DNA of 36,715 nt from Hyphomicrobiales bacterium. GTDB taxonomy: Bacteria; Pseudomonadota; Alphaproteobacteria; Rhizobiales; Beijerinckiaceae. This document shows positions 3,048 to 16,799 of this stretch, piece after piece. The number at the start of each line of letters is the position of its first letter. Positions within the stretch are counted from its first letter, which is position 1. Below the pieces are notes generated by a model, which was not told the DNA's origin, ran no database searches, and saw only the letters and a program-made list of their open reading frames with translations. Both the position numbers and the translations under genes were made by a program. The DNA is taken from positions 1-36,715 of the forward strand of contig CANFLM010000021.1 in NCBI GenBank assembly GCA_947447895.1. Direction: 5' to 3'.

Positions 3048-4019
3048 TTATAAAGGTGGCTCGTCATCGCCCAGCAAAGGCCGCCAGCCCCAATGCAGCA
3101 AAGAGGGATCGTCGCTATCCACGCCATGGGTCTGCAGAATGTCATGGATTTCACGCAACCGGCCAATCACGGCGGGGCCGCGCAACAGGCCAGTCATCAC
3201 CATCAGCATTTCGATGACCAGCAGTTGCACCACATAGGCCTCGGTGCCGACCCGCATCGTGGCATCGCGCGGCACATCGCTGGCCAAGACGATATCGGCC
3301 AAAGCGGCCAGTGGCGTGTGGCCTCGTGTGATGGCAATAATGGTGGCACCGCGCGCTTTGGCCAGCCGCACCACTTCCAGCAGAGACGGCATACGCCCGA
3401 CAAAGGAGATCGCCACCACCACATCGGCAGGAGTCAGTGTCGCTGCGGCCACCAGCTGGAAATGCGCATCCGAATAGGCGGTGGTGTTCAGATCAAGCCG
3501 GAACAGACGGGCCTGCAAATCCTGCGCAAGAAAATTCGAGGTCGCACCGGTGCCATAGCAATCGATACGGCGCGCGGCATTGATGGCCTTGGCCGCGCGG
3601 TCGATGAAAGTTGGGTCGATCAACCGCTGCCATTCCGACAGCACGGCCGTCAGACTGCCCACGACGTTGCGCACCACATCATAGGCACTGTCGCCCTCAC
3701 TGACACCGCGATGCAGATAGGGTGTGCCGCGTGCCAGATCGCCGGCGAGTTTCAGCTTGAAATCCTTGACCCCCTCGCAGCCCACCGTGCGGCAGAACCG
3801 GACAATTGTCGGAGCGCTGACTTCGGCGGCGCGCGCCAATTCCTCGACATTGGTGCTGACAGCCCAGCTCGGGTTCTCCAGCACCAGTTCGGCAATCCGT
3901 TTCTGCCCGCTCGACAGGCTATCCATCGCCTGCCGGATGGCACGCAATACATCGGGCGTCTCCAATCCGTCGGAATGGAACGGGGCCTCTTCGGCAACAG
4001 GGACCGGGGCGTGATCCAT
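3048..4019 (-). CDS. MurR/RpiR family transcriptional regulator (HTH + SIS)
   Basis: A 323-residue regulator. The N-terminal RpiR-type helix-turn-helix covers about residues 22-100, with the recognition region around EELARAAEVSAPTIVRFCRTVG and the following GVKDFKLKLAGDLA. A C-terminal SIS (sugar isomerase) domain covers about 135-275, with the phosphosugar-binding loop GTGATSNFLAQDLQARL and a second block VVVAISFVGRMPSLLEV. SIS domains of this family sense phosphorylated sugars or sugar acids, and MurR itself senses MurNAc-6-phosphate. The gene begins directly after the stop of the upstream ATPase gene with no gap, so it is the last gene of the ABC transporter operon and should control it, probably along with the divergent catabolic operon. 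The family call is firm; the effector is inferred from context only. Confidence 0.9.
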   Translation of the reverse strand: MDHAPVPVAEEAPFHSDGLETPDVLRAIRQAMDSLSSGQKRIAELVLENPSWAVSTNVEELARAAEVSAPTIVRFCRTVGCEGVKDFKLKLAGDLARGTPYLHRGVSEGDSAYDVVRNVVGSLTAVLSEWQRLIDPTFIDRAAKAINAARRIDCYGTGATSNFLAQDLQARLFRLDLNTTAYSDAHFQLVAAATLTPADVVVAISFVGRMPSLLEVVRLAKARGATIIAITRGHTPLAALADIVLASDVPRDATMRVGTEAYVVQLLVIEMLMVMTGLLRGPAVIGRLREIHDILQTHGVDSDDPSLLHWGWRPLLGDDEPPL

Positions 4020-4982
4020 TCAGATCGACTCCTCGGCGGCCAGATCGAAATGGCAGGCGAATTGATGCCCGTCCTGCTCGTGCCGCAACTGGGGCCGATC
4101 CTGCGCACAGAGGCTTTGGGCCTGCGGGCAGCGGGTGCGGAAAACACAGCCTGACGGTGGATCGAGTGGGGAAGGAATATCCCCCATGATCAACCGGCGC
4201 GCTTTGGGCCCATCGGGATCCGCTTTGGGGGAGGCGGCCAGCAAGGCGCGGGTATAGGGATGGCGCGGGTGGCGCATCACACGCTCGGTCGGCCCCATTT
4301 CCATGACGCGGCCGAGATAGAGCACCGCGACCCGCTCGCACAGCAATTCGACAATATCCAGATCATGCGAGATGAACAGCAAGGCCAGACCGAAGCGCGC
4401 CCGCAAATCCTGCAGCAGATTGATGATCTGGGCCTGCACCGACACATCCAGTGCCGACACCGGCTCATCGGCAATGATCAGTTTCGGTTCAACCGCCAAG
4501 GCTCTCGCAATGCCGATGCGCTGGCGTTGCCCGCCGGAAAATTCATGCGGAAACCGGTCGGCATGGGCTTTCTGCAAGCCCACCATCTCCAGCAATTCAC
4601 CGATCCGTTCGCCGCGGCGGTCCTGCGCAATCGCATGGGTATCGAGCGCCTCGCCGATGATGTCACGCACCCGCAAGCGCGGATTGAGCGAGGCGAAGGG
4701 ATCCTGGAACACCATCTGCGCCTGCGCCCGAAACGGCTTCAACTGCCGCTCCGACAGACCGTCAATCGCCTGCCCGTCAAAGCTGACCTGCCCGGTGCTT
4801 GAAGCAATCAGCCGCAAGACCAGCCGCCCGATGGTGCTTTTGCCCGAACCCGATTCACCGACCAGCCCGAAAGCCTCGCCCGCCCCGATCTCGAAACTCA
4901 CATCCTCGACCGCCCGCAACCGGCCCTTGGCGGTCACAAATTCCTTGCCCAGATGCGAAACCGACAACAATGCTTTTTTCAT
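4020..4982 (-). CDS. Oligopeptide/dipeptide-type ABC transporter ATPase (DppF/OppF-like)
   Basis: One of two ATPases powering the importer encoded at 4020-9490. Walker [10 protein letters not shown] lies near residue 40-48, followed by the Q-loop VFQDPFASLNPR, signature FSGGQRQRIGIARAL and Walker B LIIADEPVSALDVS. The C-terminal oligo_HPY region (about 230-310) contains the Cys-rich stretch CVFRTRCPQAQSLC, which in Dpp/Opp ATPases has been linked to an iron-sulfur site. Length 320 is typical. The start overlaps the stop of the preceding ATPase gene by four bases (ATGA), giving translational coupling. Dpp/Opp-type systems import peptides but also muropeptides and chito-oligosaccharides, so family membership does not fix the substrate. 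Confidence 0.92.
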   Translation of the reverse strand: MKKALLSVSHLGKEFVTAKGRLRAVEDVSFEIGAGEAFGLVGESGSGKSTIGRLVLRLIASSTGQVSFDGQAIDGLSERQLKPFRAQAQMVFQDPFASLNPRLRVRDIIGEALDTHAIAQDRRGERIGELLEMVGLQKAHADRFPHEFSGGQRQRIGIARALAVEPKLIIADEPVSALDVSVQAQIINLLQDLRARFGLALLFISHDLDIVELLCERVAVLYLGRVMEMGPTERVMRHPRHPYTRALLAASPKADPDGPKARRLIMGDIPSPLDPPSGCVFRTRCPQAQSLCAQDRPQLRHEQDGHQFACHFDLAAEESI

Positions 4983-5986
4983 GCCCAGTCCCTCCAGCGC
5001 AGGCAGCGAATATCGCCCGCACCGTCCGCTTCCAGCACGGGGGGCGTGCTCTGGCAGTGGTCTTGCGCCATCGGGCAGCGCGGCGCAAAGGCGCAGGCGG
5101 GGCCGAAATCACCGGGCTGGCCCGCAATCGCCTGGATCACCCGCCGCCCGTCTCGCACAACCGCGCGGGCCGGCAGACAGGACAGCAGAGCCTTGGTATA
5201 AGGATGGCGCGGGGCGCGGAACAGTGGCGCGGTCAGCCCGCTTTCCACCACCTGCCCGCCATACATCACGGCCACACGATCGGCGATTTCCGAGACCACG
5301 CCGAGATTATGGGTAATGAACAGGACCGCCATGCCTGTTTCGCGGCGCAGGCGGTCAATCAAAGCCAGAATTTGCGCCTGAATGGTCACATCCAGCGCGG
5401 TGGTCGGCTCGTCGGCGATCAACAGAGCCGGATTGCAGGACATGGCCAGCGCGATCATCACCCGCTGGCGCATACCGCCCGACATCTGGTGCGGATAGTC
5501 ATCCATCCGGCGTCCGGCATCGGGGATTTCAACCAGATCAAGCATGTCCCTGACCCGTTTGCGGGTGGCCTGTCCGTCCAGCCGCAGATGCAGGCGCACC
5601 GATTCCGCAATCTGTTCGCCGATCGTCAGAACCGGATTGAGGCTGGTCATCGGCTCCTGGAAGATCATCGCCATTTCGGTGCCGCGCAACTGCCGCAGCC
5701 GGTCCTGCTCCAGCGCACCGAGATCGAGTGTCTGGTTCTGCCTGGTCCGGAAACGGATCTGGCCCGCCGAAATGAAACCGGAAGCCCGCGGCAAAAGGCC
5801 CATGACCGCGAGGCTGGTGACGGATTTGCCCGAACCCGATTCCCCGACCACCGCCAGCGTCTCGCCGGCCTGCAGTTCGAGCGAGACACCGCGCACCGGC
5901 GTGACAACTCCACTCTCGGTCCGGAACGACACCGAGAGCCGGTCGATCTGCAACAAAGGCTGGTGCGGTTGAACGGTCATACTCAC
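4979..5986 (-). CDS. Oligopeptide/dipeptide-type ABC transporter ATPase (DppD/OppD-like)
   Basis: The second ATPase of the importer, 335 residues. Features in order: Walker A GESGSGKS (about 51-58), [13 protein letters not shown]-loop, signature [15 protein letters not shown], Walker [16 protein letters not shown]-loop FITHNLGVV, then the oligo_HPY tail with [14 protein letters not shown] and a further Cys. The gene overlaps the permease gene before it (5983-5986) and the ATPase gene after it (4979-4982) by four bases each, so the operon is tightly coupled. It forms a heterodimeric motor with the product of 4020-4982 (family knowledge). Confidence 0.92.
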
Positions 5987-6849
5987 AACGCCTTGCGCAA
6001 TTTGGGGTCGAGCATATCGCGCAACCCGTCACCGATCAGTTGCAACGACAGCGCCGCCAGCACAATCGCCAGCCCGGGAAACAGCACGACCCAGAAGGCA
6101 TCATCGGCATATTGCTGGCCCGAAGCGATCATCGTGCCCCAGGTCGGCACCTCGGGCGGCACCCCTGCTCCCAGAAAAGACAGGCCGGCTTCGGCCAGCA
6201 CCGCATAGGCAAAAATAAAGGTCGCCTGCACCAGAATGGGCGAGGCGACATTGAGCAGGACATGCACCCGCAAAATCCGGAAGGTCGAAACACCCAGTGC
6301 CCGAGCGGCCTCGACAAACGGCAATTCGCTGACCACCAGGGTCGAGGCCCGCACCACGCGCACCACGCGAGGGGCATAGACAATCGACAGAGCCAGCACG
6401 ACATTGCCGGAGGACGGCCCCAAAATCGCCACCAGAAAAATCGCCAGCAGAATATCGGGCAAGGCCATCATGGCATCGGCCAAGCGCATGATCAGTGCAT
6501 CCAGCCCCTTTACATAGCCCGCCAGCAGGCCGAACAGCGTGCCGATGCTCATCGACAGCAACACCACAGCCGCGCCGATACCGAGCGAGGCCCGCCCGCC
6601 GTAAATCATGCGCGAGAGAATGTCGCGGCCGAACTCGTCGGTGCCCAGCCAGTTGATGTCGCTTGGGGGTTTCAAGCGGCGCGCCATCCGCATCGCATCG
6701 GGCTTGAACGGCGCCACCCAGGGCGCCAGCAAAGCGGCCAGCACGATCACGCCCAGCACCAGCGTGGCGATCAGCACCAGTTTGCGCCGGAACAACCGCT
6801 TGAAAAACAGGCGGACAGGACTGGCCTGGGCCATGACCATCGCATCCAT
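5983..6849 (-). CDS. ABC transporter permease (DppC/OppC-like)
   Basis: Integral inner-membrane permease of 288 residues. It has the N-terminal OppC-type TM segment (LVLIATLVLGVIVLAALLAPWVAP), the NWLGTDEFGRDILSRMIYGGR motif typical of the DppC/OppC group, about five further TM segments, and the EAA loop region EAARALGVSTFRILRVHVLLN that docks onto the ATPases. Its start shares one base with the stop of the upstream permease gene. It pairs with the product of 6849-7793. Confidence 0.93.
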   Translation of the reverse strand: MDAMVMAQASPVRLFFKRLFRRKLVLIATLVLGVIVLAALLAPWVAPFKPDAMRMARRLKPPSDINWLGTDEFGRDILSRMIYGGRASLGIGAAVVLLSMSIGTLFGLLAGYVKGLDALIMRLADAMMALPDILLAIFLVAILGPSSGNVVLALSIVYAPRVVRVVRASTLVVSELPFVEAARALGVSTFRILRVHVLLNVASPILVQATFIFAYAVLAEAGLSFLGAGVPPEVPTWGTMIASGQQYADDAFWVVLFPGLAIVLAALSLQLIGDGLRDMLDPKLRKAL

Positions 6850-7793
6850 CAGCCGGCCCTCACACGCGGGTCAGCCAGCGCATAGATCAGATCCACTGCC
6901 AGATTGATCAGCACATAGACGGCGGCCACCACAATCAGCGCGCCCTGGATGACCGGATAATCGCGCCGCAGCACCGCCGAAACCACCAGATTGCCGATGC
7001 CGGGCAGCCCGAACACGGTTTCGGTGACAATCGCGCCACCCACCAGCAAAGCCGCCGTCAGGCCCACCACGGTGATCACCGGAATCAGCGCATTGCCGAA
7101 AGCGTGACGCCAGATCACCACCCGCTCGGCCAGACCTTTGGACCGCGCCGTCCGGATAAAATCCTCGCTCAGAATATCGAGCATGCTGGCACGGGTGAAG
7201 CGGGTGATCAGCGCGGAATTCACAATGCCCAACACACTGGCCGGCAGGACCAGATGCTGCAAGCGCACCAGAAACGGGGCTCCCGGATCGCCATATCCGG
7301 CCACCGGAAACCAGCCCAGCTTGACCGCAAACAGCTGGATGAAAATCAGCCCGAGCCAAAAGCTCGGGATATTGGCGGCCACCATCGCCAGACCGCTCAG
7401 ACACTGGTCAAGCCAGCGGCCGCGCCAGACCGCCGAAGCAATCCCCGCCGGAATGCCGATCAAAGCGGCTATCGAGACCGAAAACAAGGCGAGGAAAAAG
7501 GTCGGCTCGGCCCGCTCGCTCAAGGCTTGCGTGACAGGGCGTTGCAGGAAAATCGACTGGCCCAGATTGCCCGAGAGGATTTCCTTCACCCACAAACCGA
7601 ATTGCACCAGCAAAGGCTGGTCGAGCCCATAGGTCGCCCGCAATTTGGCAATATCCTGCACGGTCGCCTGGTCGCCCAGCATCAAAGCCGCCGGATCACC
7701 CGGTGCAAGGCGTGTCAGGAAGAACACCATGGTGGCCACCAGGGCCATCACGATCAGCAAACCGGCCAGCCTGCGCAGAAAGAACCGTGCCAT
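6849..7793 (-). CDS. ABC transporter permease (DppB/OppB-like)
   Basis: Inner-membrane permease of about 314 residues. I place the start at ATG 7793, because the protein then begins MARFFLRRLAGLLIVM as in DppB relatives and a GGGAGCAG SD lies about ten bases upstream; the reading frame itself is open to 7841. Family marks are an N-terminal TM helix, FLTRLAPGDPAALMLGD, TYGLDQPLLVQFGLWV, the conserved periplasmic segment with about six TM helices, and a C-terminal EAA-like loop ARSKGLAERVVIWRHAFGNALIPV. It is separated from the binding-protein gene by 137 bases containing a strong hairpin. Confidence 0.92.
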   Translation of the reverse strand: MARFFLRRLAGLLIVMALVATMVFFLTRLAPGDPAALMLGDQATVQDIAKLRATYGLDQPLLVQFGLWVKEILSGNLGQSIFLQRPVTQALSERAEPTFFLALFSVSIAALIGIPAGIASAVWRGRWLDQCLSGLAMVAANIPSFWLGLIFIQLFAVKLGWFPVAGYGDPGAPFLVRLQHLVLPASVLGIVNSALITRFTRASMLDILSEDFIRTARSKGLAERVVIWRHAFGNALIPVITVVGLTAALLVGGAIVTETVFGLPGIGNLVVSAVLRRDYPVIQGALIVVAAVYVLINLAVDLIYALADPRVRAG

Positions 7794-7891
7794 TGCCGAA
7801 CTCTGCTCCCGCCTGAATAAAACCCCTGGCGCACACTGCATGCGCCGGAAATCGTCTCAAATGAATGAATAAAACGCTAGACATGAATAAG

Positions 7892-7914
7892 GGGCGGCAG
7901 AGTGACTGCCGCCC
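7892..7914 (-). terminator. Stem-loop between binding-protein and permease genes (attenuator or mRNA stabiliser)
   Basis: A perfect 9-bp stem GGGCGGCAG/CTGCCGCCC with a 5-base loop starts 16 bases beyond the binding-protein stop codon. There is no good U-run on the minus strand, so it is better read as a processing/stabilising hairpin or partial terminator. Such elements commonly leave more binding-protein mRNA than permease mRNA in ABC importer operons. Confidence 0.6.
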
Positions 7915-7930
7915 GATTGTCAAAGCCCGA

Positions 7931-9490
7931 TCAGGGCGTGATGCTCACATTCCAGAACGCTGGCCATGGCATCGGCGCATAGCCTTTCATCTTGTTCGAC
8001 ACCCCCGAAAGGGCCGCGAAATTGCCGACGCGGATATAGGGCACCTCGTCATAGACCGTCTGCTGCACCTTGGCCCACAAGGCACCGCGCTTTGCCGCAT
8101 CTGGCTCGGAGTTGAAGGCCGCCAGGGCCGCATCCTTGGCCGGCGACTTCCAGCCACCGGGAGCGCCGTCACCCAATTGCGGGGGCGACAGCATCGGCTC
8201 CGGCAGGAAGGCGGAATGGGTCACATAGACATCCCAGACAGCCGGATCGGCGCGGCGCTGCACCAAGGTGGCCCAATCGACCACATCCAGTGTCACGGCA
8301 AAGCCCGCCGCCTTCAGCTGCTCGGCCATCACCAGAGCCATGCGGTGGTGGTAGTCATATTGCTTGGAATTGAGGATGCGGATCGGCGTGCCGTCATATT
8401 TGGCTTCGGCCAACAACTTTTTGGCCCCTGCCGCATCACCCTTGTTGTACTGGCCCTTGCCAGCCTCGGAATAGAACGGCGAGCCCTTGGGGAAATGCTC
8501 GGCACTGACGGCAAAGAATTTCGGATCGCCGAAACCGGCCATCAGGATTTCCTCGTCATTCAAAGCCATCTGGAAGGCCTGGCGGATTTTGACATCCTTC
8601 ATCGGCCCCTGCACCGTATTGGTGGGGAAATAGGGGAAGCCGTAAGGCATGGTCAGCACGGGGCTGACATTGCTGGCCGCCGATACCTTCTTGTTGCTTT
8701 CGACAGGCAGCTGGTCGGCGAAGTGGTACTGACCGGCAATCACGCCTTCGGTGCGGGTGTTGGCATTGGGCACCGGAATGAACCGCAATTCATCCACCTT
8801 GGCTTCGCGCTTGCCCGCATAGCCGCTGGGCGCTTCCGAGCGCGCATTGTAGCCGTCATGCTTCACGAGAACGACGAACTGGTCGGGCTTTCGCTCGCGG
8901 AATTTATAGGGACCGGTCCCGACAAATTCGACCAGCGGGGTGGCAATCGATTCCTTGGCCATGATCCCGGCAAAGCCCGACGGCAGTGCCAGATGCGCCA
9001 GCAAAGCCGGCTGGACATCGGACAGGCTGATCTCGATGCTATTGGCACCCTTGGCGACAATACCGGTGATGCTCTTGCCCAGGGCCTTGCCACGCGGGGT
9101 CATCTCGACCCACCGCTTCAGCGAGGCAACGACATCGTCGGCATCCAGATCACGGCCATTGTGCAGTTTCACGCCCTTGCGGATCTCGATGCTGTAGTTT
9201 TTGCCATCGGCGCTGATTTTGGGCATGTCGACTGCCAGCATCGGCTTGACGACCCATTTGTCATCGAATGTATAAAGCGGCTCATAGACATGCTGCATGA
9301 TGATGGACACCAGATCAGCGGTCGACGCCATCGGGTCGAGTGATTGCGGCTCGCCGATCATCGCCAGATTGGCACTGGTCTGCGCCAAGGCGGGCAGAGG
9401 GGCGGACAGGCTTGCCAGCGCGGCAAGTCCCGCAGCGCCCAGCACATGCCTGCGGTTCAAAACATCCAATAGTGAAAACGACTTTGACAT
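7931..9490 (-). CDS. ABC transporter substrate-binding protein, family 5 (peptide/nickel/oligosaccharide type)
   Basis: Periplasmic solute-binding protein of 519 residues and first gene of the transporter operon. The N-terminus has a twin-arginine-like signal (NRRHVLGAAGLAALASL, ending near PALAQ), suggesting Tat export. The mature part has the SBP_bac_5 hallmarks: EPQSLDPMAST, MQHVYEPLYTFDDKW, the DGKNYSIEIRKGVKLHNGRDLDADDVV block at about 95-125, and a C-terminal lobe ending AFWNVSITP. Members bind di/oligopeptides, nickel, opines, glutathione, muropeptides or chito-oligosaccharides; sequence inspection cannot choose among these. The neighbouring catabolic genes favour an amino-sugar-derived ligand. 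The promoter region is shared with the divergent amidohydrolase operon. Confidence 0.9.
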   Translation of the reverse strand: MSKSFSLLDVLNRRHVLGAAGLAALASLSAPLPALAQTSANLAMIGEPQSLDPMASTADLVSIIMQHVYEPLYTFDDKWVVKPMLAVDMPKISADGKNYSIEIRKGVKLHNGRDLDADDVVASLKRWVEMTPRGKALGKSITGIVAKGANSIEISLSDVQPALLAHLALPSGFAGIMAKESIATPLVEFVGTGPYKFRERKPDQFVVLVKHDGYNARSEAPSGYAGKREAKVDELRFIPVPNANTRTEGVIAGQYHFADQLPVESNKKVSAASNVSPVLTMPYGFPYFPTNTVQGPMKDVKIRQAFQMALNDEEILMAGFGDPKFFAVSAEHFPKGSPFYSEAGKGQYNKGDAAGAKKLLAEAKYDGTPIRILNSKQYDYHHRMALVMAEQLKAAGFAVTLDVVDWATLVQRRADPAVWDVYVTHSAFLPEPMLSPPQLGDGAPGGWKSPAKDAALAAFNSEPDAAKRGALWAKVQQTVYDEVPYIRVGNFAALSGVSNKMKGYAPMPWPAFWNVSITP

Positions 9491-9711: not shown

Positions 9712-10845
9712 ATGGTATTTGATCTTGTTCTGACAGGCGGTCGGGTGATCGACCCGTCCCAATCGATTGACCGTGTGACCGATGTGGCCTTTCAGAGCGG
9801 CAAGGTGGTGGCTGTCGGCGACGGACTGGCCGCGCAAGCCGCCACGGTCGAACATGTGGAAGGCAAGATTGTCACACCCGGCCTGATTGACCTGCACACC
9901 CACACCTATTGGGGCGGCACCTCGCTGGGGGTCGATCCGGTCATTCTCGGCAAAGGCGGATGCACCACGGTGGTGGATACCGGATCGGCAGGCCCAGGGA
10001 ACTATCCGGGCTTTCTCGAACATGTGATCAAGCCCTCGCCCATCCGGATCATTGCCTATCTGAATGTCTCGTTTGCGGGCATTTACGGCTTCTCCAAACG
10101 GATCATGGTGGGTGAAAGCGGCGATTTACGGCTGATGGCGCCGCTCGACACCGTCGATGTCGCCCTGGCCCATCGCGATACGCTCGCCGGCATCAAGGTG
10201 CGGGTCGGCTTCCATGCCTCGGGCAATTCCGGCCTCGTGCCGCTCGACATTGCCAGACAGGTGGCCGACGAGGTCGGTATGCCTTTGATGGTGCACATCG
10301 ATTATCCGCCGCCCACCCTGCCGGATGTGCTGGCCCGGCTGCGCAAGGGCGACATCCTGACCCATTGCTTCCGCCCCTTCCCCAACTCTCCCGCCACCGC
10401 TGCAGGCGGCGTGATTCCGGAAGTGTTGGACGCGCGCCAGCGCGGGGTGATTTTCGACATCGGACACGGCATGGGGTCGTTCTCCTTCGCCACGGCCCGC
10501 ACCATGCTGAAGAACAATTTCATGCCCGACTGCATCTCCTCCGATGTGCATGCCCTGTGCATCGACGGACCGGCCTATGACCTGTTGACCACCATGTCGA
10601 AATTCATCGAACTCGGCATGCCGCTGGTCGAAGTGATCCGCTCGGCCACCCAAAATGCCGCCCATGCCCTGAACCGTCCCGATCTCGGCACCTTCAAGGC
10701 AGGCAGTGCGGGCGATGCCACGGTCATTGACTGGCGCGAGGGCTCATTCGACTATGTCGACTCGACAGGCGAGCAACTGGCTGGCAAAACCCGTCTGCTG
10801 GCCTCCCATGTCATCGTCAACGGGGCCTTGTGGCACAAAGCGTAA
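9712..10845 (+). CDS. Amidohydrolase/deacetylase family metallohydrolase (EF_0837/AHA_3915-like)
   Basis: A predicted TIM-barrel amidohydrolase of 377 residues. From ATG 9712 it begins MVFDLVLTGGRVIDP, as in dihydroorotase-like deacetylases; GGGGAG lies about ten bases upstream, so I prefer this start to the upstream frame opening at 9628. Metal-site motifs: HTH (H62, H64) in LIDLHTHTYWG, the probable carboxylated Lys in GIKVRVG, then MVHIDYPP, ILTHCF and the catalytic Asp in SSDVHAL. Relatives deacetylate N-acyl-D-amino acids or related amides and sit beside KDPG-type aldolase genes. Here it leads the operon, so it probably removes an acetyl (acyl) group from an amino sugar acid before the PLP enzyme acts. 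The fold is well supported; the substrate is inferred. Confidence 0.87.
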   Translation: MVFDLVLTGGRVIDPSQSIDRVTDVAFQSGKVVAVGDGLAAQAATVEHVEGKIVTPGLIDLHTHTYWGGTSLGVDPVILGKGGCTTVVDTGSAGPGNYPGFLEHVIKPSPIRIIAYLNVSFAGIYGFSKRIMVGESGDLRLMAPLDTVDVALAHRDTLAGIKVRVGFHASGNSGLVPLDIARQVADEVGMPLMVHIDYPPPTLPDVLARLRKGDILTHCFRPFPNSPATAAGGVIPEVLDARQRGVIFDIGHGMGSFSFATARTMLKNNFMPDCISSDVHALCIDGPAYDLLTTMSKFIELGMPLVEVIRSATQNAAHALNRPDLGTFKAGSAGDATVIDWREGSFDYVDSTGEQLAGKTRLLASHVIVNGALWHKA

Positions 10846-10856
10846 GGACAACAATC

Positions 10857-11318
10857 ATGACACCCGAACAACGTCTGGAAGCCCTTGGCCTGACCTTGCC
10901 TGACATGCCGATACCGGTGGCCAATTATGTGCCTTACCGCTGGGCGGGCAATCTGCTCTATCTGTCGGGCCAGGGTCCGAAGCGAACGGACGGCACCTAC
11001 CGGGTCGGCCGGCTGGGCCGCGACATCACCATCGAGGAAGCCTATCAGGAAGCGCGTCTGACCGGTCTCAATCTGCTGGCCGCCACAAAAGCCGCCGTGG
11101 GTGATCTGTCCCGCGTCGAAGCGGTGGTGAAGCTCTTGGGCATGGTCAATGCGGAACCGGATTTTTCCGACCATCCGAAAGTGATTAACGGCTGCTCCGA
11201 CCTGTTTGTCGACGTGTTGGGTGAAGCCGGTCGCCATGCCCGTTCGGCTGTCGGCATGGGCTCGCTGCCCAACCGCATGTCGGTCGAAATCGAAGCCATC
11301 CTGCTGATCCGCAACTGA
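10857..11318 (+). CDS. RidA family protein (enamine/imine deaminase)
   Basis: A 153-residue YjgF/YER057c/UK114 protein, starting at ATG 10857 after TAAGGA. The conserved core LLYLSGQGP and the C-terminal GRHARSAVGMGSLPNRMSVEIEAILL contain the Arg and the Glu that in active RidA proteins hydrolyse enamines/imines released by PLP dehydratases. The gene lies 11 bases after the amidohydrolase and 26 bases before a PLP lyase, so it most likely finishes the deamination started by that enzyme. It belongs to the subgroup with the YxPYRxAGNLLYLSG N-terminus rather than the short housekeeping RidA. Confidence 0.88.
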   Translation: MTPEQRLEALGLTLPDMPIPVANYVPYRWAGNLLYLSGQGPKRTDGTYRVGRLGRDITIEEAYQEARLTGLNLLAATKAAVGDLSRVEAVVKLLGMVNAEPDFSDHPKVINGCSDLFVDVLGEAGRHARSAVGMGSLPNRMSVEIEAILLIRN

Positions 11319-11344
11319 TCCACATATCCGAAGGAGGCACCCCG

Positions 11345-12430
11345 ATGGGCCTGTCACAGCTGAAAGCGCAGATCGCGCGCGACTATGGCACTCCCGCCAT
11401 GGTGATCGACCTCAACGTGGTTGAAAACAATATCGCCCGCGTCCAGGCCATGTGTGATGCGGTCGGCGTGGCCAACCGCCCGCACATCAAAACCCATAAA
11501 AGCCCGATCATTGCCAAAATGCAGATCGAGGCGGGTGCCAAAGGCATCACCTGCCAGAAGATCGGCGAGGCCGAGGTGATGGCGGATGCCGGCATCGACG
11601 ATATTTTTATCAGCTACAATCTGCTGGGAGAACAAAAGATCGGCCGTCTTGGCCAGCTGCTCAAGCGTGTCAAAATGCGGGTGGCTTGCGACAACCAAAC
11701 GGTTCTTGATGGCCTGCCCGAAGCGGGCATCATCGCCGGACGCCCGCTCGAGGTGATGGTGGAATGCGATACGGGCCGCAAGCGCGCCGGTGTCGAAACC
11801 CCGCAAGAGGCCATTGATCTGGCCAAACAGATAGCGGCCAACAAGCATCTGAGCTTTGCCGGACTGATGATGTATCCGCCCGAAAGCAAAATGACCGAAA
11901 CGGAAGATTTCATCGCCACCGTGCGCGCCGGCTTGCGCGAAGCAGGCATCGAGATCAACGAAGTCTCGTCGGGCGGCACGCCCAATCTGGTCAATCTGGG
12001 CAAGATCAAAGCGGCGACCGAACACCGCGCGGGCACCTGCATTTTCAATGACCGGATGATGATGCGCAACGGTCACGCCAGCCTCGCTGATTGCGCGCTC
12101 AACGTCTATGCCACCGTGGTCTCACGCGCCGGTGCCGAGCGCGGCATTCTCGATTCGGGATCGAAAACCCTGACCGCCGACACCGGCGGCGGGCTGGACG
12201 GCTTCGGCCTGATCCTCGAACATCCGCAGGCCCGCATCGCACAGTTTGCCGAAGAGCATGGCTTTCTCGATCTGTCGGCCTGCAATGACCGTCCGGTGGT
12301 GGGCGATGTCGTGCGCATCATCCCCAACCATGTCTGCGTTGTGGTCAATATGGTGGATCGTCTGGTGGTGGTGCGCGGGCATGAATTGATCGGTGACTGG
12401 CCGGTAGCGGCGCGCGGCCGCATCGTCTAA
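11345..12430 (+). CDS. D-threonine aldolase/D-serine dehydratase-fold PLP enzyme, probable amino sugar acid dehydratase
   Basis: A fold-type III PLP enzyme of 361 residues with an alanine racemase-like N-terminal barrel and a C-terminal D-Ser-dehydratase-like domain. The PLP lysine is K49 in RPHIKTHKS. A His-x-Cys pair (H329, C331 in PNHVC) near the C-terminus matches the metal ligands described for eukaryotic-type D-serine dehydratase. An AAGGAGG SD precedes ATG 11345. The family includes D-threonine aldolases, D-serine dehydratases and 3-hydroxyaspartate dehydratases. Next to RidA and a KDPG-type aldolase, the best reading is alpha,beta-elimination of a 2-amino-3-hydroxy sugar acid (for example D-glucosaminate) to a 2-keto-3-deoxy acid plus ammonia. 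True D-threonine aldolase activity cannot be excluded. Confidence 0.85.
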   Translation: MGLSQLKAQIARDYGTPAMVIDLNVVENNIARVQAMCDAVGVANRPHIKTHKSPIIAKMQIEAGAKGITCQKIGEAEVMADAGIDDIFISYNLLGEQKIGRLGQLLKRVKMRVACDNQTVLDGLPEAGIIAGRPLEVMVECDTGRKRAGVETPQEAIDLAKQIAANKHLSFAGLMMYPPESKMTETEDFIATVRAGLREAGIEINEVSSGGTPNLVNLGKIKAATEHRAGTCIFNDRMMMRNGHASLADCALNVYATVVSRAGAERGILDSGSKTLTADTGGGLDGFGLILEHPQARIAQFAEEHGFLDLSACNDRPVVGDVVRIIPNHVCVVVNMVDRLVVVRGHELIGDWPVAARGRIV

Positions 12431-12439
12431 TCTGCCGCA

Positions 12440-13093
12440 ATGAGCACACACCAAGCCAACCGGCTGGCCTTCGACCAGCATTTCGAGCGTTGCCCGCTGA
12501 TTGCGATCTTGCGCGGCATTACCCCGTCCGAAGTGGTCGCGGTCGGCGAAGCCCTTGTGGCAGCCGGGATCACGCTGATCGAGGTGCCGTTGAATTCGCC
12601 CGATCCGCTGGAGAGTATTGCCCTGATGGCGCGCCATTTCGAAGGACGCGCGATGATCGGGGCGGGCACGGTTCTGAGCGTGCAGGATGTCAAGGAGGTG
12701 CAAGCCCATGGCGGCACGCTGATCGTATCGCCCAACTGCAATGCAAGCGTGATTGCTCAGACCAAACAAATGGGGCTGGTATCGGCGCCCGGCGTGTTCA
12801 CCGCTTCCGAGGCCTTTGTCGCGCATGAGACAGGCGCCGATCTCGCCAAACTGTTTCCCGGCGAATTGATGTCGCCTGCCGGCATCCGCGCGCTGTCGGC
12901 GGTGCTGCCCAAATCCCTGCGGCTGCTGCTGGTCGGCGGTGTCGGGCTCGAGACAGCCGAACACTATCGCGAGACGCCGCTGGCAGGCATGGGCATCGGC
13001 TCGTCCCTCTACAAACCCGGCGTCAGCGCCGGGGAAGTGGGCAAGCGCGCAAGCCACTTTGTCGAGAGCTGGCGCAAAGTGCATCCACGGTAA
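12440..13093 (+). CDS. 2-dehydro-3-deoxy-6-phospho(gluc/galact)onate aldolase, DgoA/Eda type
   Basis: A class I aldolase of 217 residues cleaving a 2-keto-3-deoxy-6-phospho sugar acid to pyruvate and glyceraldehyde 3-phosphate. [12 protein letters not shown] (18-29), the catalytic Glu in IEVPLNSP (E48), GAGTVL (74-79) and the Schiff-base Lys in AKLFPGE (K137) are all in place. The pattern is closer to DgoA (KDPGal aldolase) than to Eda, but stereochemical preference cannot be read from sequence. It starts nine bases after the PLP enzyme gene and ends ten bases before the kinase gene. It would take the phosphorylated product of the pathway proposed here. Confidence 0.9.
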
Positions 13094-13103
13094 AGGGCTG
13101 GGT

Positions 13104-14012
13104 ATGATCACCGTCTTCGGTTCCATCAATGTCGATTTTGTGACCCGCGTTGCCCATATTGCCCAAGCGGGCGAAACCGTGCTGGGTCCCGATTATCAGG
13201 TCTTTGCAGGCGGGAAAGGCGGCAACCAGGCTTTGGCTGCCGTGCGCGCCGGCGCGCCGACAAGGATGGTGGGGGCTGTCGGCCGCGATCCTTTTGCGGA
13301 ACTCGGCCTGCAACCGCTTGAACAGGCCGGCGTCGACCTGTCCTGCATCCAGCGCGTCGATGCACCGACAGGGGCGGCCTTTATTGCGGTCAGTGATGCG
13401 GGCGAGAACGCGATTACAGTGGCCTCCGGTGCCAATAGGCTGGCCACAGCCGATGCGCTGTCGGGCCTTACGCTCTCGCCATCTGATCTTGTCCTCTTGC
13501 AGCGCGAACTGCCCGATGCGCAAACCCTTGCTGCCGCCCGCTGGGCCAGGCAGCAGGGCGCGCGGGTGATCCTCAACATCGCGCCCGCCGGACAGCTGGA
13601 CCCCGCTTTGCTGACCTTTATTGACGTGCTGATCGCCAATGAGGGCGAGATCCTGTCGCTGGCCGAACAATTCGGCATGACAGTCACCAGCCCCGACGAC
13701 ATCGCCAGGCAGATGGACCGGGACCACGCCATCACCACTGTTGTGACGATGGGAGAACAGGGCGTGGTGGCCTGGTCGGACGGTGTCCGTCGGCAGATCG
13801 ACGCGCTGCCGATCGAGGTGGTCGACACAACGGCGGCGGGCGATTCCTTTTGCGGGGCCTTTGCAGCCGCCCTGCATCGCGGCTTCGGACTGACGGGCGC
13901 ATTGCAACGCGGCGTGGCGGCAGGCAGTCTCGCCTGCACGCAACTGGGGGCACAAAGCTCGATCCCCTTACTGGCTGCCATCGAGACAGCGCTGGACGGC
14001 CAATTCGCCTGA
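13104..14012 (+). CDS. PfkB/ribokinase family sugar (acid) kinase
   Basis: A 302-residue PfkB-family kinase starting at ATG 13104, the first residue of the typical ITVFGSINVDFV strand. The substrate-binding GGKGGNQA motif and the C-terminal anion-hole/catalytic motif DTTAAGDSFCGAFAAAL (DTTAAGD in place of the common DTTGAGD) are intact. It resembles ribokinase more than classical KdgK. In this operon, directly after the KDPG-type aldolase, it most plausibly phosphorylates the 2-keto-3-deoxy acid at C6. It is the last gene of the plus-strand operon and ends 12 bases from the stop of the convergent phosphatase gene, leaving no room for a separate terminator. Confidence 0.88.
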   Translation: MITVFGSINVDFVTRVAHIAQAGETVLGPDYQVFAGGKGGNQALAAVRAGAPTRMVGAVGRDPFAELGLQPLEQAGVDLSCIQRVDAPTGAAFIAVSDAGENAITVASGANRLATADALSGLTLSPSDLVLLQRELPDAQTLAAARWARQQGARVILNIAPAGQLDPALLTFIDVLIANEGEILSLAEQFGMTVTSPDDIARQMDRDHAITTVVTMGEQGVVAWSDGVRRQIDALPIEVVDTTAAGDSFCGAFAAALHRGFGLTGALQRGVAAGSLACTQLGAQSSIPLLAAIETALDGQFA

Positions 14013-14024
14013 CCTGAAAACGGA

Positions 14025-14576
14025 TTACGAGACCGGCAGCAGCGGCTGATAAACGGCCTGTTCCTGCGCCTCGGTTTCGATGGTGCCCGGACGCGCCTGA
14101 CGCACCGCGGCAATGGCCTTTTGCGGGGTGAGGCCGGAGGTCACCAGCAATTGGGCGGCAAAGGTCCCGGTGCGGCCCAAGCCTGCCGCGCAATGCACCA
14201 CTGCCACGCCGTCATTGCGCAAGTCACGCAACAGGTCTGGCACTTCCAAGGCCATACGCTGGCGCGTCACGCTTCCTGCCACTGCCATATCGGCAACAGG
14301 CCAATGATGCCAGATCAGGCCATGCGTTGCGACACGATGGGGCAGATCCTCGACACCATAGAGGGCAAATTCGCTTTCCTCGATCAGCGTGACCAGATGC
14401 GAAGCCCCGAAAGCCTTGATCGCCTGCAGATCCTCATCGAGATTGCGGGCCCAGAGGCGGCTATGGCTATCCCAGCCACAGCGTCCCGGACAATGCACCA
14501 AGCCCAGTCTGCCTCCCTTGGGCAGAGCTATCGTGTCAATCTGCAAGGCACCATTGACGGATAGATCGTCAGACAT
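14025..14576 (-). CDS. Tyrosine/dual-specificity protein phosphatase-like protein
   Basis: A 183-residue protein with the cysteine-phosphatase P-loop HCAAGLGRTGTF: catalytic C129 and R135 (CX5R), with a candidate general-acid Asp at D96 in WPVADMA. The fold resembles the CDKN3/KAP-type and bacterial atypical dual-specificity phosphatases. It is the second gene of a minus-strand pair with the lactonase at 14610-15497 (33-base gap). A protein phosphatase in a sugar-acid operon is unusual; some CX5R enzymes act on sugars or inositol phosphates instead of proteins, so a small-molecule substrate is possible. The motif call is firm; the role is unknown. Confidence 0.85.
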   Translation of the reverse strand: MSDDLSVNGALQIDTIALPKGGRLGLVHCPGRCGWDSHSRLWARNLDEDLQAIKAFGASHLVTLIEESEFALYGVEDLPHRVATHGLIWHHWPVADMAVAGSVTRQRMALEVPDLLRDLRNDGVAVVHCAAGLGRTGTFAAQLLVTSGLTPQKAIAAVRQARPGTIETEAQEQAVYQPLLPVS

Positions 14577-14609: not shown

Positions 14610-15497
14610 TCAGGCCAGCGGCTCGCCGAAGCGCGCAACGGGCGCACCGGGCACATCAACCTCGAAGGACACAATCGTGCCTGCATAATCATGACCGTCG
14701 ACCTGTTTGGCCAACGAAGTCACATACAGGGTTTTCATGTCTGGCCCGGCAAAGCAGGGCATGGTCGGGGCCGGAAACGGCAGCATGACCTTGCGGTCCA
14801 GCGTGCCATCGGGGGCAATCCGGTTCAGGCAGCCCGCGGTCACGCCCGCCGCCCAATAATAGCCCTCGGCATCGCAAGCCGCGCCGTCGGGGCGCCCTTC
14901 GGCCTCGGGCAGCATCCGCAGGATACGCTGGCGCGAGAGATCACCGGTCTTCACATCGAAATCGAATGCTTGCGCATAGGGACCACGGCTGTCGGCATGG
15001 TACATCGTGCGGTGGTCGGGCGACCAGGCCAGACCATTCGAGATGATCAGCCCATCCACCATCTTGTCGCAGCGTCCATCGGTGTCGATGCGGTACAGTG
15101 CAGCCACCGCCTCCTTGGTCGGGCGGTCATCCATCGAGCCAACCCAGAAGCGTCCGTCGGGACCGACCTTGCCGTCGTTCAGGCGATTGGTCGGACGGTC
15201 CGGCTCGGGGCGGACCAGCAACGACAACGCCTCTGTCGCCGGATCGAACCAATAAACCCCGTCGCGCAGCGCAACCACCATGCGGCCATCCCTGGCCAGA
15301 CCGAAACTGCCGATATCGCTCGGCATGGCCCATTCGCGCAGGGCCTTGCTCGCCAGATCAAGCCGGTAGAGTTTGGGGGCCAGAATATCGACAAAATACA
15401 GCGCATTTTCTGCAGCCGACCAGCACGGACCTTCACCGAGTTTGAGCGGTGTGTCGATGACAGTGGTCAACTCGGGGTGATCGATACGCAACAGCAT
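14610..15497 (-). CDS. SMP-30/gluconolactonase/LRE family lactonase
   Basis: A six-bladed beta-propeller sugar lactonase of about 295 residues. Metal-ligand motifs are the Glu in LGEGPCW near the N-terminus, the Asn in NRLNDGKVGPDGRFWVG, the SNGLAWSPD block and the Asp in RPDGAACDAEG. The start is uncertain. ATG 15497 follows a strong GGAGGA by zero bases, too close; TTG 15491, two codons downstream, has ideal spacing from the same SD; ATG 15524 is a further option. Family enzymes open sugar-1,4/1,5-lactones. Here the expected role is hydrolysis of an aldonolactone, such as an N-acetylglucosamino-lactone, feeding the deacetylase at 9712-10845. Confidence 0.87.
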   Translation of the reverse strand: MLLRIDHPELTTVIDTPLKLGEGPCWSAAENALYFVDILAPKLYRLDLASKALREWAMPSDIGSFGLARDGRMVVALRDGVYWFDPATEALSLLVRPEPDRPTNRLNDGKVGPDGRFWVGSMDDRPTKEAVAALYRIDTDGRCDKMVDGLIISNGLAWSPDHRTMYHADSRGPYAQAFDFDVKTGDLSRQRILRMLPEAEGRPDGAACDAEGYYWAAGVTAGCLNRIAPDGTLDRKVMLPFPAPTMPCFAGPDMKTLYVTSLAKQVDGHDYAGTIVSFEVDVPGAPVARFGEPLA

Positions 15498-15565
15498 TCC
15501 TCCGTTATTACAGCAGCCGATCATGCCAGTCCCGGCTGGCAGACGCAAGACGCCCCGGCAAGCAT

Positions 15566-15704: not shown

Positions 15705-16799
15705 ATGTTTACCAGCAAGACCCGAACCGTCATCGGCACCATCAGCGGCACATCGATGGATGGCATCGACATCGCCATCTTGCGCACCGATGGGCAAACC
15801 CTTGTGGAAGCGGGCTTCGGCGCGACCCTGCCCTATCCCGAAGCCTTGCGGAACAGACTGCTGGATTTTCTGCAAGACCCCAGCCGCGCCATGTCGGACC
15901 CACTGACCCACCTGGAACAGGATGTCACCGATGCCTTCAGCGCGGCGATCGGACAATTCCTGGAGCAGAACCGCATCAACCCAAAAGATATCGAATTGAT
16001 CGGGCTGCACGGCCAGACGGTCTACCACCGGCCCGAACTGGGTTTTACCCGCCAGCTGGGCGACGGGCGGCGGATGGCCGCACAACTGGGCATTACGGTC
16101 GTCGACCAGTTCCGCCTCGCCGATGTCAAAGCCGGCGGTCAGGGCGCACCGCTGGTGCCGGTTTATCATCACGCGCTGGCAAGCCGCCTGCAACAGCCGG
16201 TGATGATCCTGAATTGGGGCGGGGTCGGCAATGTCACCTATCTCGACGGCTCGACGATTCTGGCCTTTGACACGGGTCCGGCATCGGCGCTTTGCGATGA
16301 TTGGGTGCGCAGACATTTCGGCCTGCCCTATGATGAAGGCGGACGCTTGAGCCAGCTCGGTCAGGTCAACCGCAGCGTGCTGGGCCGGTTGCTCGACAAT
16401 CCTTTTTTTGCCACGCGTCCGCCCAAATCTCTGGATCGCAACGACTTCCACGAGCGCGCCCGCATTGTCGAAAGCCTGTCCCCGCATGATGGCCTGGCCA
16501 CCCTTGCCGCCTTTACCATCGAGGCCACCTGCCGGGCATTGGACCACGTGCCGACCCCGCCGCTGCAATGGTTTGTGGCCGGCGGTGGACGCCATAATCT
16601 GCATTTCATGGAGGGGCTTGCCCAACGGCTCGCCGTGCATGTCGTCCCGGTCGAAAGCATCGGGTGGGATGGGGATTTTCTGGAGGCGCAATGTTTCGGC
16701 TATCTGGCGGTGCGTTCCAAATTGGGCCTGCCGCTGAGCCTTCCCAGCACCACGGGCGTCAAAGTGCCGATGACGGGCGGGCGGATCTGGCCCGCCTGA
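15705..16799 (+). CDS. anmK: Anhydro-N-acetylmuramic acid kinase
   Basis: A 364-residue sugar kinase of the ASKHA superfamily that phosphorylates and hydrolyses 1,6-anhydro-MurNAc to MurNAc-6-phosphate (family knowledge). Seen here: the nucleotide-binding start GTISGTSMDGIDIA (11-24), the IGLHGQTVYHRP block, the NWGGVGNVTYL block, the catalytic Asp in FDTGPASALCDDW, YDEGG, and the C-terminal VAGGGRHN. Length is normal. No murQ, nagZ or amgK is seen nearby. Its placement beside an RpiR (MurR-type) regulated amino-sugar cluster suggests cell-wall sugar input, or an AnmK-like kinase recruited for another anhydro or lactone sugar. The 3' end overlaps the convergent DCC-family gene by 41 bases. 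Confidence 0.92.
   Translation: MFTSKTRTVIGTISGTSMDGIDIAILRTDGQTLVEAGFGATLPYPEALRNRLLDFLQDPSRAMSDPLTHLEQDVTDAFSAAIGQFLEQNRINPKDIELIGLHGQTVYHRPELGFTRQLGDGRRMAAQLGITVVDQFRLADVKAGGQGAPLVPVYHHALASRLQQPVMILNWGGVGNVTYLDGSTILAFDTGPASALCDDWVRRHFGLPYDEGGRLSQLGQVNRSVLGRLLDNPFFATRPPKSLDRNDFHERARIVESLSPHDGLATLAAFTIEATCRALDHVPTPPLQWFVAGGGRHNLHFMEGLAQRLAVHVVPVESIGWDGDFLEAQCFGYLAVRSKLGLPLSLPSTTGVKVPMTGGRIWPA

Follow-up and report, generated by a model that had tools for sequence, protein, structure and literature searches.

A Rid-linked enzyme of the 'D-TA family' in Hyphomicrobiales is predicted to be a dehydratase of D-beta-hydroxy-amino acids

In the window, by which we mean the whole 36,715-nucleotide stretch of Hyphomicrobiales DNA that was analysed, a Rid gene is followed by a gene for a fold-type III PLP enzyme whose relatives carry aldolase names. 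Judged by its active-site residues this enzyme is very likely an eliminative dehydratase and not a retro-aldolase, and the elimination is well supported. The best overall explanation of the locus, which we consider probable from its sequence, is a metal-assisted dehydratase of a D-beta-hydroxy-amino acid that would act with a Rid helper protein in what may be an amino-aldonate operon.

The home genome comprises 2.54 Mb in 104 contigs and is 94.8% complete. By PLP protein, the nearest named loci (96-97% identity) belong to metagenome-assembled Hyphomicrobiales/Rhizobiales, and their sample names suggest lakes as the source; an uncultured Rhizobiales (80%) comes next, then Microvirga, Alsobacter and Bosea. 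The original prediction had paired a Rid gene with the PLP enzyme gene, and the two indeed lie on the same strand, Rid upstream, 26 bases apart. They belong to a closely packed row of plus-strand genes encoding an amidohydrolase, the Rid protein, the PLP enzyme, an aldolase and a PfkB kinase, with spacings of 9 and 10 bases between the last three (Table 1). The predicted deacetylase, which we take to be labelled COG3964, has a solved relative in 2ogj (8.5e-56). With respect to gluconate versus galactonate, the aldolase passes the galactonate-type subfamily model only and stays below the eda model TIGR01182 (117.6 versus a cut-off of 156.05), and the kinase is under the cut-off of every specific model (ribokinase 266.4 against 299.65; KDG-kinase NF052444 30 against 400 bits). 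The AnmK gene has this place beside the operon in the genus's other genomes too. A small protein with a dual-specificity/tyrosine phosphatase domain is encoded at 14025-14576 on the minus strand (PF22784, 48 bits, cut-off 27) and occupies the same location in several genomes of the genus.

Table 1. Coordinates of the operon, its divergent partner and neighbouring genes in the window.
Feature	Position	Strand	Evidence
Divergent operon: peptide-type ABC importer and MurR/RpiR-type (RpiR/SIS) regulator	3048..9490	-	
MurR/RpiR-type regulator	3048-4019	-	
ABC importer ATPases	4979-5986 and 4020-4982	-	
ABC importer permeases	6849-7841 and 5983-6849	-	
ABC importer binding protein	7931-9490	-	
PRK09237-type amidohydrolase, predicted N-deacetylase, first gene of the operon	9712..10845	+	NF006689 402.9 bits (cut-off 371)
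Rid protein, 153 aa, predicted imine/enamine hydrolase	10857..11318	+	PF14588, Arg129, Glu144/Glu146 retained
Fold-type III PLP enzyme, 361 aa, predicted D-beta-hydroxy-amino-acid dehydratase	11345..12430	+	Ala_racemase_N and D-ser_dehydrat
K49 codon, PLP lysine, aligned with AxDTA Lys59	11489..11491	+	K in 196/196 rows
H329-V330-C331 codons, predicted metal ligands	12329..12337	+	C in 157/157 H-x-C rows, D in 39/39 others
KDPG/KDPGal-type aldolase (PRK09140, 2-dehydro-3-deoxy-6-phosphogalactonate aldolase)	12440..13093	+	257.6 bits (cut-off 207)
PfkB-family sugar kinase, predicted 2-keto-3-deoxy-aldonate kinase	13104..14012	+	PF00294 175.3 bits
SMP-30/gluconolactonase-like protein, possible lactonase, pathway link uncertain	14610..15548	-	PF08450 284.5 bits
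Anhydro-MurNAc kinase AnmK, operon neighbour, link uncertain	15705..16799	+	NF007141 455.3 bits (cut-off 352)

The PLP enzyme matches PF01168 (78.3 bits, cut-off 24.1) and PF14031, D-ser_dehydrat (79.8 bits, cut-off 22), and is the sole PF14031 match found in the home genome. An AlphaFold2 model (mean pLDDT 96.4, pTM 0.93) is closest to the D-threonine aldolase 4v15 (Z 42.9, rmsd 2.0, 348 aligned, 36% identity), and phmmer likewise ranked aldolases first among solved proteins. The comparison with dehydratase structures that had been proposed thus bore out a common fold (3wqc, Z 40.2, 29% identity; 3anv, Z 39.8) but placed an aldolase nearer. On this model the fold is one that aldolases and dehydratases share, and fold ranking cannot separate them. 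Since the nearest solved proteins by overall sequence and fold are D-threonine aldolases, the case for a dehydratase is built on active-site residues. The same overall similarity may be why relatives bear the name expected from the outset, 'D-TA family PLP-dependent enzyme' (L022, L023 and L024); one, L025, is named 'alanine racemase'.

In the D-threonine aldolase of Alcaligenes (AxDTA), PLP is held by Lys59 and the metal by His347 and Asp349, and the base is most likely His193, whereas chicken D-serine dehydratase binds zinc through His and Cys and is without an AxDTA-type His193 (PMC4401734). The AxDTA numbering was confirmed on the chain sequence. The H-x-C pair to which the original prediction had pointed, H329/C331, is present and is the only H-x-C/D of the protein, and at the AxDTA His193 column the alignment has a gap in the window enzyme.

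For the family-wide comparison, 205 loci were scanned and 198 had a family match, giving 199 sequences, of which 191 including the window were kept after 8 repeats, with no difference in the stretch compared, had been dropped; loci L001-L021, L066-L072 and L153-L172 lie outside this count. Since sequences entered the sample for their similarity to the window enzyme, it is no census of the fold. Together with five solved enzymes the alignment holds 196 rows. The PLP lysine is invariant in all of them, 157 combine H-x-C with absence of the His193 equivalent, 39 combine H-x-D with that His, and mixed rows number 0 of 196. H-x-D plus His is found in all four solved aldolase-side enzymes (4v15, 7dib, 7yqa and 6qkb), and H-x-C in the solved D-threo-3-hydroxyaspartate dehydratase 3wqc. 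On a tree computed with the ligand and base columns removed, by a quick method that gave warnings and long branches, the motif needs a single change, and the split of the H-x-D group has a support of 84. The two active-site positions and the placement on the tree put the window enzyme on the dehydratase side. The initial proposal of a dehydratase rather than an aldolase is hence favoured by ligand and base agreeing in 196/196 rows with one change on the tree.

The predicted reaction would run as follows. The ABC importer would bring in an N-acetyl precursor and the deacetylase would free its amine. With PLP held by K49, the substrate would form the external aldimine on this lysine, and a divalent metal on H329 and C331 would bind its C3 (beta) hydroxyl; the alpha proton would be lost and hydroxide would then leave. 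The enamine/imine so released would give a 2-keto-3-deoxy acid and ammonia, its hydrolysis being sped up by the adjoining Rid protein, and kinase and aldolase would convert the 2-keto-3-deoxy product to pyruvate and glyceraldehyde-3-phosphate. The metal and lysine roles proposed here follow the mechanisms of related enzymes (PMC4401734).

Because the deacetylase would supply the amine, and kinase and aldolase would consume a 2-keto-3-deoxy product, a 2-amino-2-deoxy-aldonate appears the likeliest substrate. By analogy we lean, with modest confidence, towards this class (D-glucosaminate or D-galactosaminate), and do so for the window's genus alone: of the 97 closest sequences, 5 have aldolase and kinase within 4 kb of the PLP gene, all of them from this genus, so the substrate is not transferable to the whole family. 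The alternative that deserves most weight, although we judge it unlikely, is that the enzyme dehydrates ordinary D-amino acids (D-serine, D-threonine, D-hydroxyaspartate) obtained from N-acyl-D-amino acids or peptides, with aldolase and kinase serving another sugar acid. It would fit the peptide-type importer, the activity of the ong-cluster deaminase OngC on D-Ser and D-Thr as well (PMC9537276), a relative (L044) whose neighbours include a diaminopropionate ammonia-lyase and a nitrilase-type amidase, and the 92 of 97 close sequences whose 4-kb surroundings yielded no aldolase plus kinase. However, the two genes directly follow the PLP gene in all five distinct loci of the window's genus, nearly abutting it in the window, and a KDG route needs both, whereas a pyruvate-yielding D-serine route would not.

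The Rid protein had been described as an active-type RidA. The first half of this description stands, as Arg129 (R129, aligned with 3d01 and PA0814) and the glutamates of the VEIE motif, E144 and E146, are kept; the second does not, the protein scoring 25.4 with TIGR00004 against a cut-off of 106.25 for RidA in the narrow sense. It matches PF14588 (94.8, cut-off 35) and PF01042 (46, cut-off 27.3), and phmmer finds 3d01, 2otm, PA0814 (9bk9) and ACIAD3089 (9bkb) as its solved relatives. The last two are listed as Rid1 and were assayed as imine deaminases, and an equivalent of Arg-105 predicts Rid activity (PMC5619798). Judged by these relatives, the window protein is nearer to Rid1 than to RidA, and 'active type' is a fair description.

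Neighbourhoods in this GC-rich DNA with long shadow ORFs were read with a codon-scored gene caller, which overlooked the PLP gene at two loci of 132 (L054 and L061); the final Rid counts are profile matches over all ORFs, and two full 4-kb flanks are available for 130 of the 156 H-x-C and 30 of the 35 H-x-D genes. A Rid gene lies within 4 kb of 50 of the 156 H-x-C genes versus 0 of the 35 H-x-D genes, a difference that is uncorrected for common descent and amounts to one contrast, the motif having changed just once on the tree; Fisher values of 9e-6 (within 4 kb) and 2.7e-4 (adjacent) ignore kinship and are not used as probabilities. Sorted by identity to the window enzyme, the H-x-C genes have Rid within 4 kb in 30/97 cases (at least 58%, window included), 16/49 (40-58%) and 4/10 (below 40%). 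All 30 cases of the closest group have Rid immediately upstream in the same orientation. Among the 20 cases of the two remaining groups, 9 have Rid next to the PLP gene in the same orientation (4 upstream, 5 downstream), 9 have it on the opposite strand and 2 have it at a greater distance on the same strand, so that over all groups 39 of 50 are adjacent on the same strand. All 50 neighbouring Rid proteins retain the Arg and a Glu. In-house profiles assign 30 of them to the window type and 20 to a shorter type, the two profiles overlapping with 35 of 46 matches in common; Pfam, applied to five, gave PF14588 for the window and L110 and PF01042 only for L052, L025 and L023. The label 'Rid nearby' changes 20 times on the tree, at least 11 times on starred branches, always on the H-x-C side. 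Chance neighbourhood was considered and rejected in view of the recurrence (30 of 97 directly upstream on the same strand) compared with four distinct Rid loci in the home genome of 2.5 Mb. Among the 97 closest sequences, 67 showed no Rid gene in the 4-kb range, which some of the flanks do not span in full. Rid is thus a frequent partner of the PLP enzyme and is neither a condition for it nor diagnostic alone.

A deacetylase gene lies within 4 kb of 27 of the 97 closest sequences and of 1 of the 35 H-x-D genes; at some Bosea and Microvirga loci it forms a row with Rid and the PLP gene. That the Rid protein has its role with another enzyme or in general stress, and is an incidental neighbour of the PLP gene, we regard as improbable. 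Rid proteins do act broadly on imines (PMC5619798), many close relatives have no Rid neighbour, and 11 of the 50 Rid genes lie on the other strand or at a distance; against this stand the uniform upstream position in the closest group, the 11 or more changes that the tree forces within the H-x-C group, the presence of two Rid types in the same role and the occurrence of Rid at 25 of the 27 deacetylase-linked loci as well.

Checked against ligand, base, tree and a curated model, the reading of the enzyme as a D-threonine or hydroxyaspartate aldolase in which Cys merely substitutes for Asp as metal ligand is very improbable: it agrees with the aldolases being the nearest solved sequences and folds, with the NCBI label 'D-TA family' on relatives and with BhcC as the only NCBIfam match, but ligand and His193 position are both unlike all 39 aldolase-side rows, the score with the curated BhcC model NF045642 (184.7 bits) is far below the cut-off of 690, and no Rid gene was found within 4 kb of any of the 35 H-x-D genes.

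Loci L052 and L054 speak for the Rid-assisted dehydratase that we prefer. Counterparts of the window's regulator (60%), deacetylase (67-68%) and importer (binding protein 72-74%, permeases 77-80%) occur in both loci, but Rid and PLP enzyme come from another pair of genes, a short-type Rid and an H-x-C PLP enzyme of 46-48% identity, at the end of the importer operon. There (L052:8806-18098, L054:8935-18253) the Rid-dehydratase pair has apparently been replaced, the functions being kept together though both proteins differ. In L044 (8709-13598) a diaminopropionate ammonia-lyase (457 bits, cut-off 276), a nitrilase-type amidase, a deacetylase, Rid and the PLP gene stand in a row, and the two PLP lyases should both release enamines. 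The PLP gene of L130 (4349-10080) is accompanied by Rid, a TRAP transporter and an enolase-superfamily protein resembling sugar-acid dehydratases, and that of L077 (4274-10086), without Rid, by a TRAP transporter and a galactarate-dehydratase-like protein. As the surroundings differ in these other genera, the family probably handles several D-beta-hydroxy-amino acids. Most close relatives, the Bradyrhizobium set for example, have the H-x-C PLP gene without a Rid neighbour, and the Bradyrhizobium enzyme is suggested to be used independently of one. The Bradyrhizobium loci L139, L134 and L147 (from 9001) have constant surroundings, with an ABC-type ATPase gene upstream and neither Rid nor deacetylase gene; the ATPase gene upstream of the H-x-C enzyme was checked with Pfam in L115.

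A broader proposal, which is possible but which we advance tentatively, is that the large alphaproteobacterial 'D-TA family' consists of D-beta-hydroxy-amino-acid dehydratases that recruited a Rid partner many times, and that in the window's genus the enzyme is a 2-amino-2-deoxy-aldonate dehydratase of an ong-like route with a different deacetylase family and importer. Non-phosphorylated D-glucosaminate dehydratase activity is known from alphaproteobacteria. If the proposal is true, a gene would be assigned to this activity and the window's deacetylase family would gain a physiological substrate. The automatic name would be wrong for the clade, 146 distinct H-x-C sequences (at least 40% identity) being dehydratases, and two residues would be enough to tell both reactions apart in annotation. 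A Hyphomicrobiales lineage whose home genome yielded no LPMO would also have reassembled an amino-sugar-acid route around another kind of deacetylase, and a Rid protein would be placed beside the dehydratase in a route where the role of the Rid protein OngD is open (PMC9537276). Among the matches listed from the open-licence literature, no paper was found on a Rid and PLP gene pair in alphaproteobacteria.

Among known enzymes, chicken D-serine dehydratase (3anu) and D-threo-3-hydroxyaspartate dehydratase of Delftia (3wqc) agree with the window enzyme in fold, PLP lysine, His and Cys ligands and absence of His193; they have 27-29% identity and act on small D-amino acids. With both Pfam domains, the His and Cys ligands and no AxDTA-type base His, the window enzyme shares these sequence features with D-serine-dehydratase-like proteins. 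The D-threonine aldolases (4v15, 7dib, 7yqa) and BhcC (6qkb) share its fold and have the highest overall identity, up to 36%, but carry His and Asp ligands and the catalytic His193, and the window enzyme is without this Asp and this His. The Rid1 proteins PA0814 and ACIAD3089, relatives of the window Rid protein and shown to be imine deaminases, differ in that the available part of PMC5619798 gives them no tie to a D-amino-acid dehydratase.

The closest known system is the ong cluster of Pseudoalteromonas prydzensis, in which OngB removes the acetyl group of N-acetylglucosaminate (GlcNAc1A), OngC forms KDG and ammonia from glucosaminate and accepts D-Ser and D-Thr as further substrates for deamination, and KDG is phosphorylated by KdgK, so that OngB, OngC and KdgK together turn GlcNAc1A into KDG-6-P and ammonia (PMC9537276). 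The Rid protein OngD is described there as essential for growth and its function as unknown, and OngC without OngD still gave ammonia and KDG in vitro (PMC9537276). For this reason a missing effect of Rid on product formation would not count against a dehydratase. The search for ong-like clusters, with query P0002 against 274 genomes and D-aminoacylase against 252 genomes, all from a different class of the same phylum (that of G759, presumably Gammaproteobacteria), found L174, L176 and L177, and none of the ong-like clusters from these searches was from a named Pseudoalteromonas. In L176 and L177, which combine D-aminoacylase and Rid, the PLP enzymes are far relatives (about 101 bits with the family profile) that have His and Cys too. 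L174 (26-11545) combines, in one stretch, a D-aminoacylase with a pair of differing H-x-C PLP enzymes and two matches to Rid. An oxidative chitin route as such was rejected for the window's organism, since no match to the chitin LPMO family AA10 (PF03067, LPMO_10) at E 0.001 was found in its 94.8%-complete genome.

The window's operon differs from the ong cluster in its PRK09237-type deacetylase, in place of the D-aminoacylase-like OngB (PpOngB aligns with it over residues 7-116 only, at 21.6 bits), in an ABC peptide-type importer in place of an SSS symporter, in its ribokinase-like kinase and in its PF14588/Rid1-like Rid protein. What both share is a deacetylase, a fold-type III PLP enzyme, a Rid protein, a sugar kinase and a MurR/RpiR regulator, and a KDG-6-P aldolase is added in some ong clusters, much as the window's operon has its KDPG/KDPGal-type aldolase (PMC9537276). 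The locus is thus a correctable misnaming together with a variant of a known pathway cluster, and not a new kind of system.
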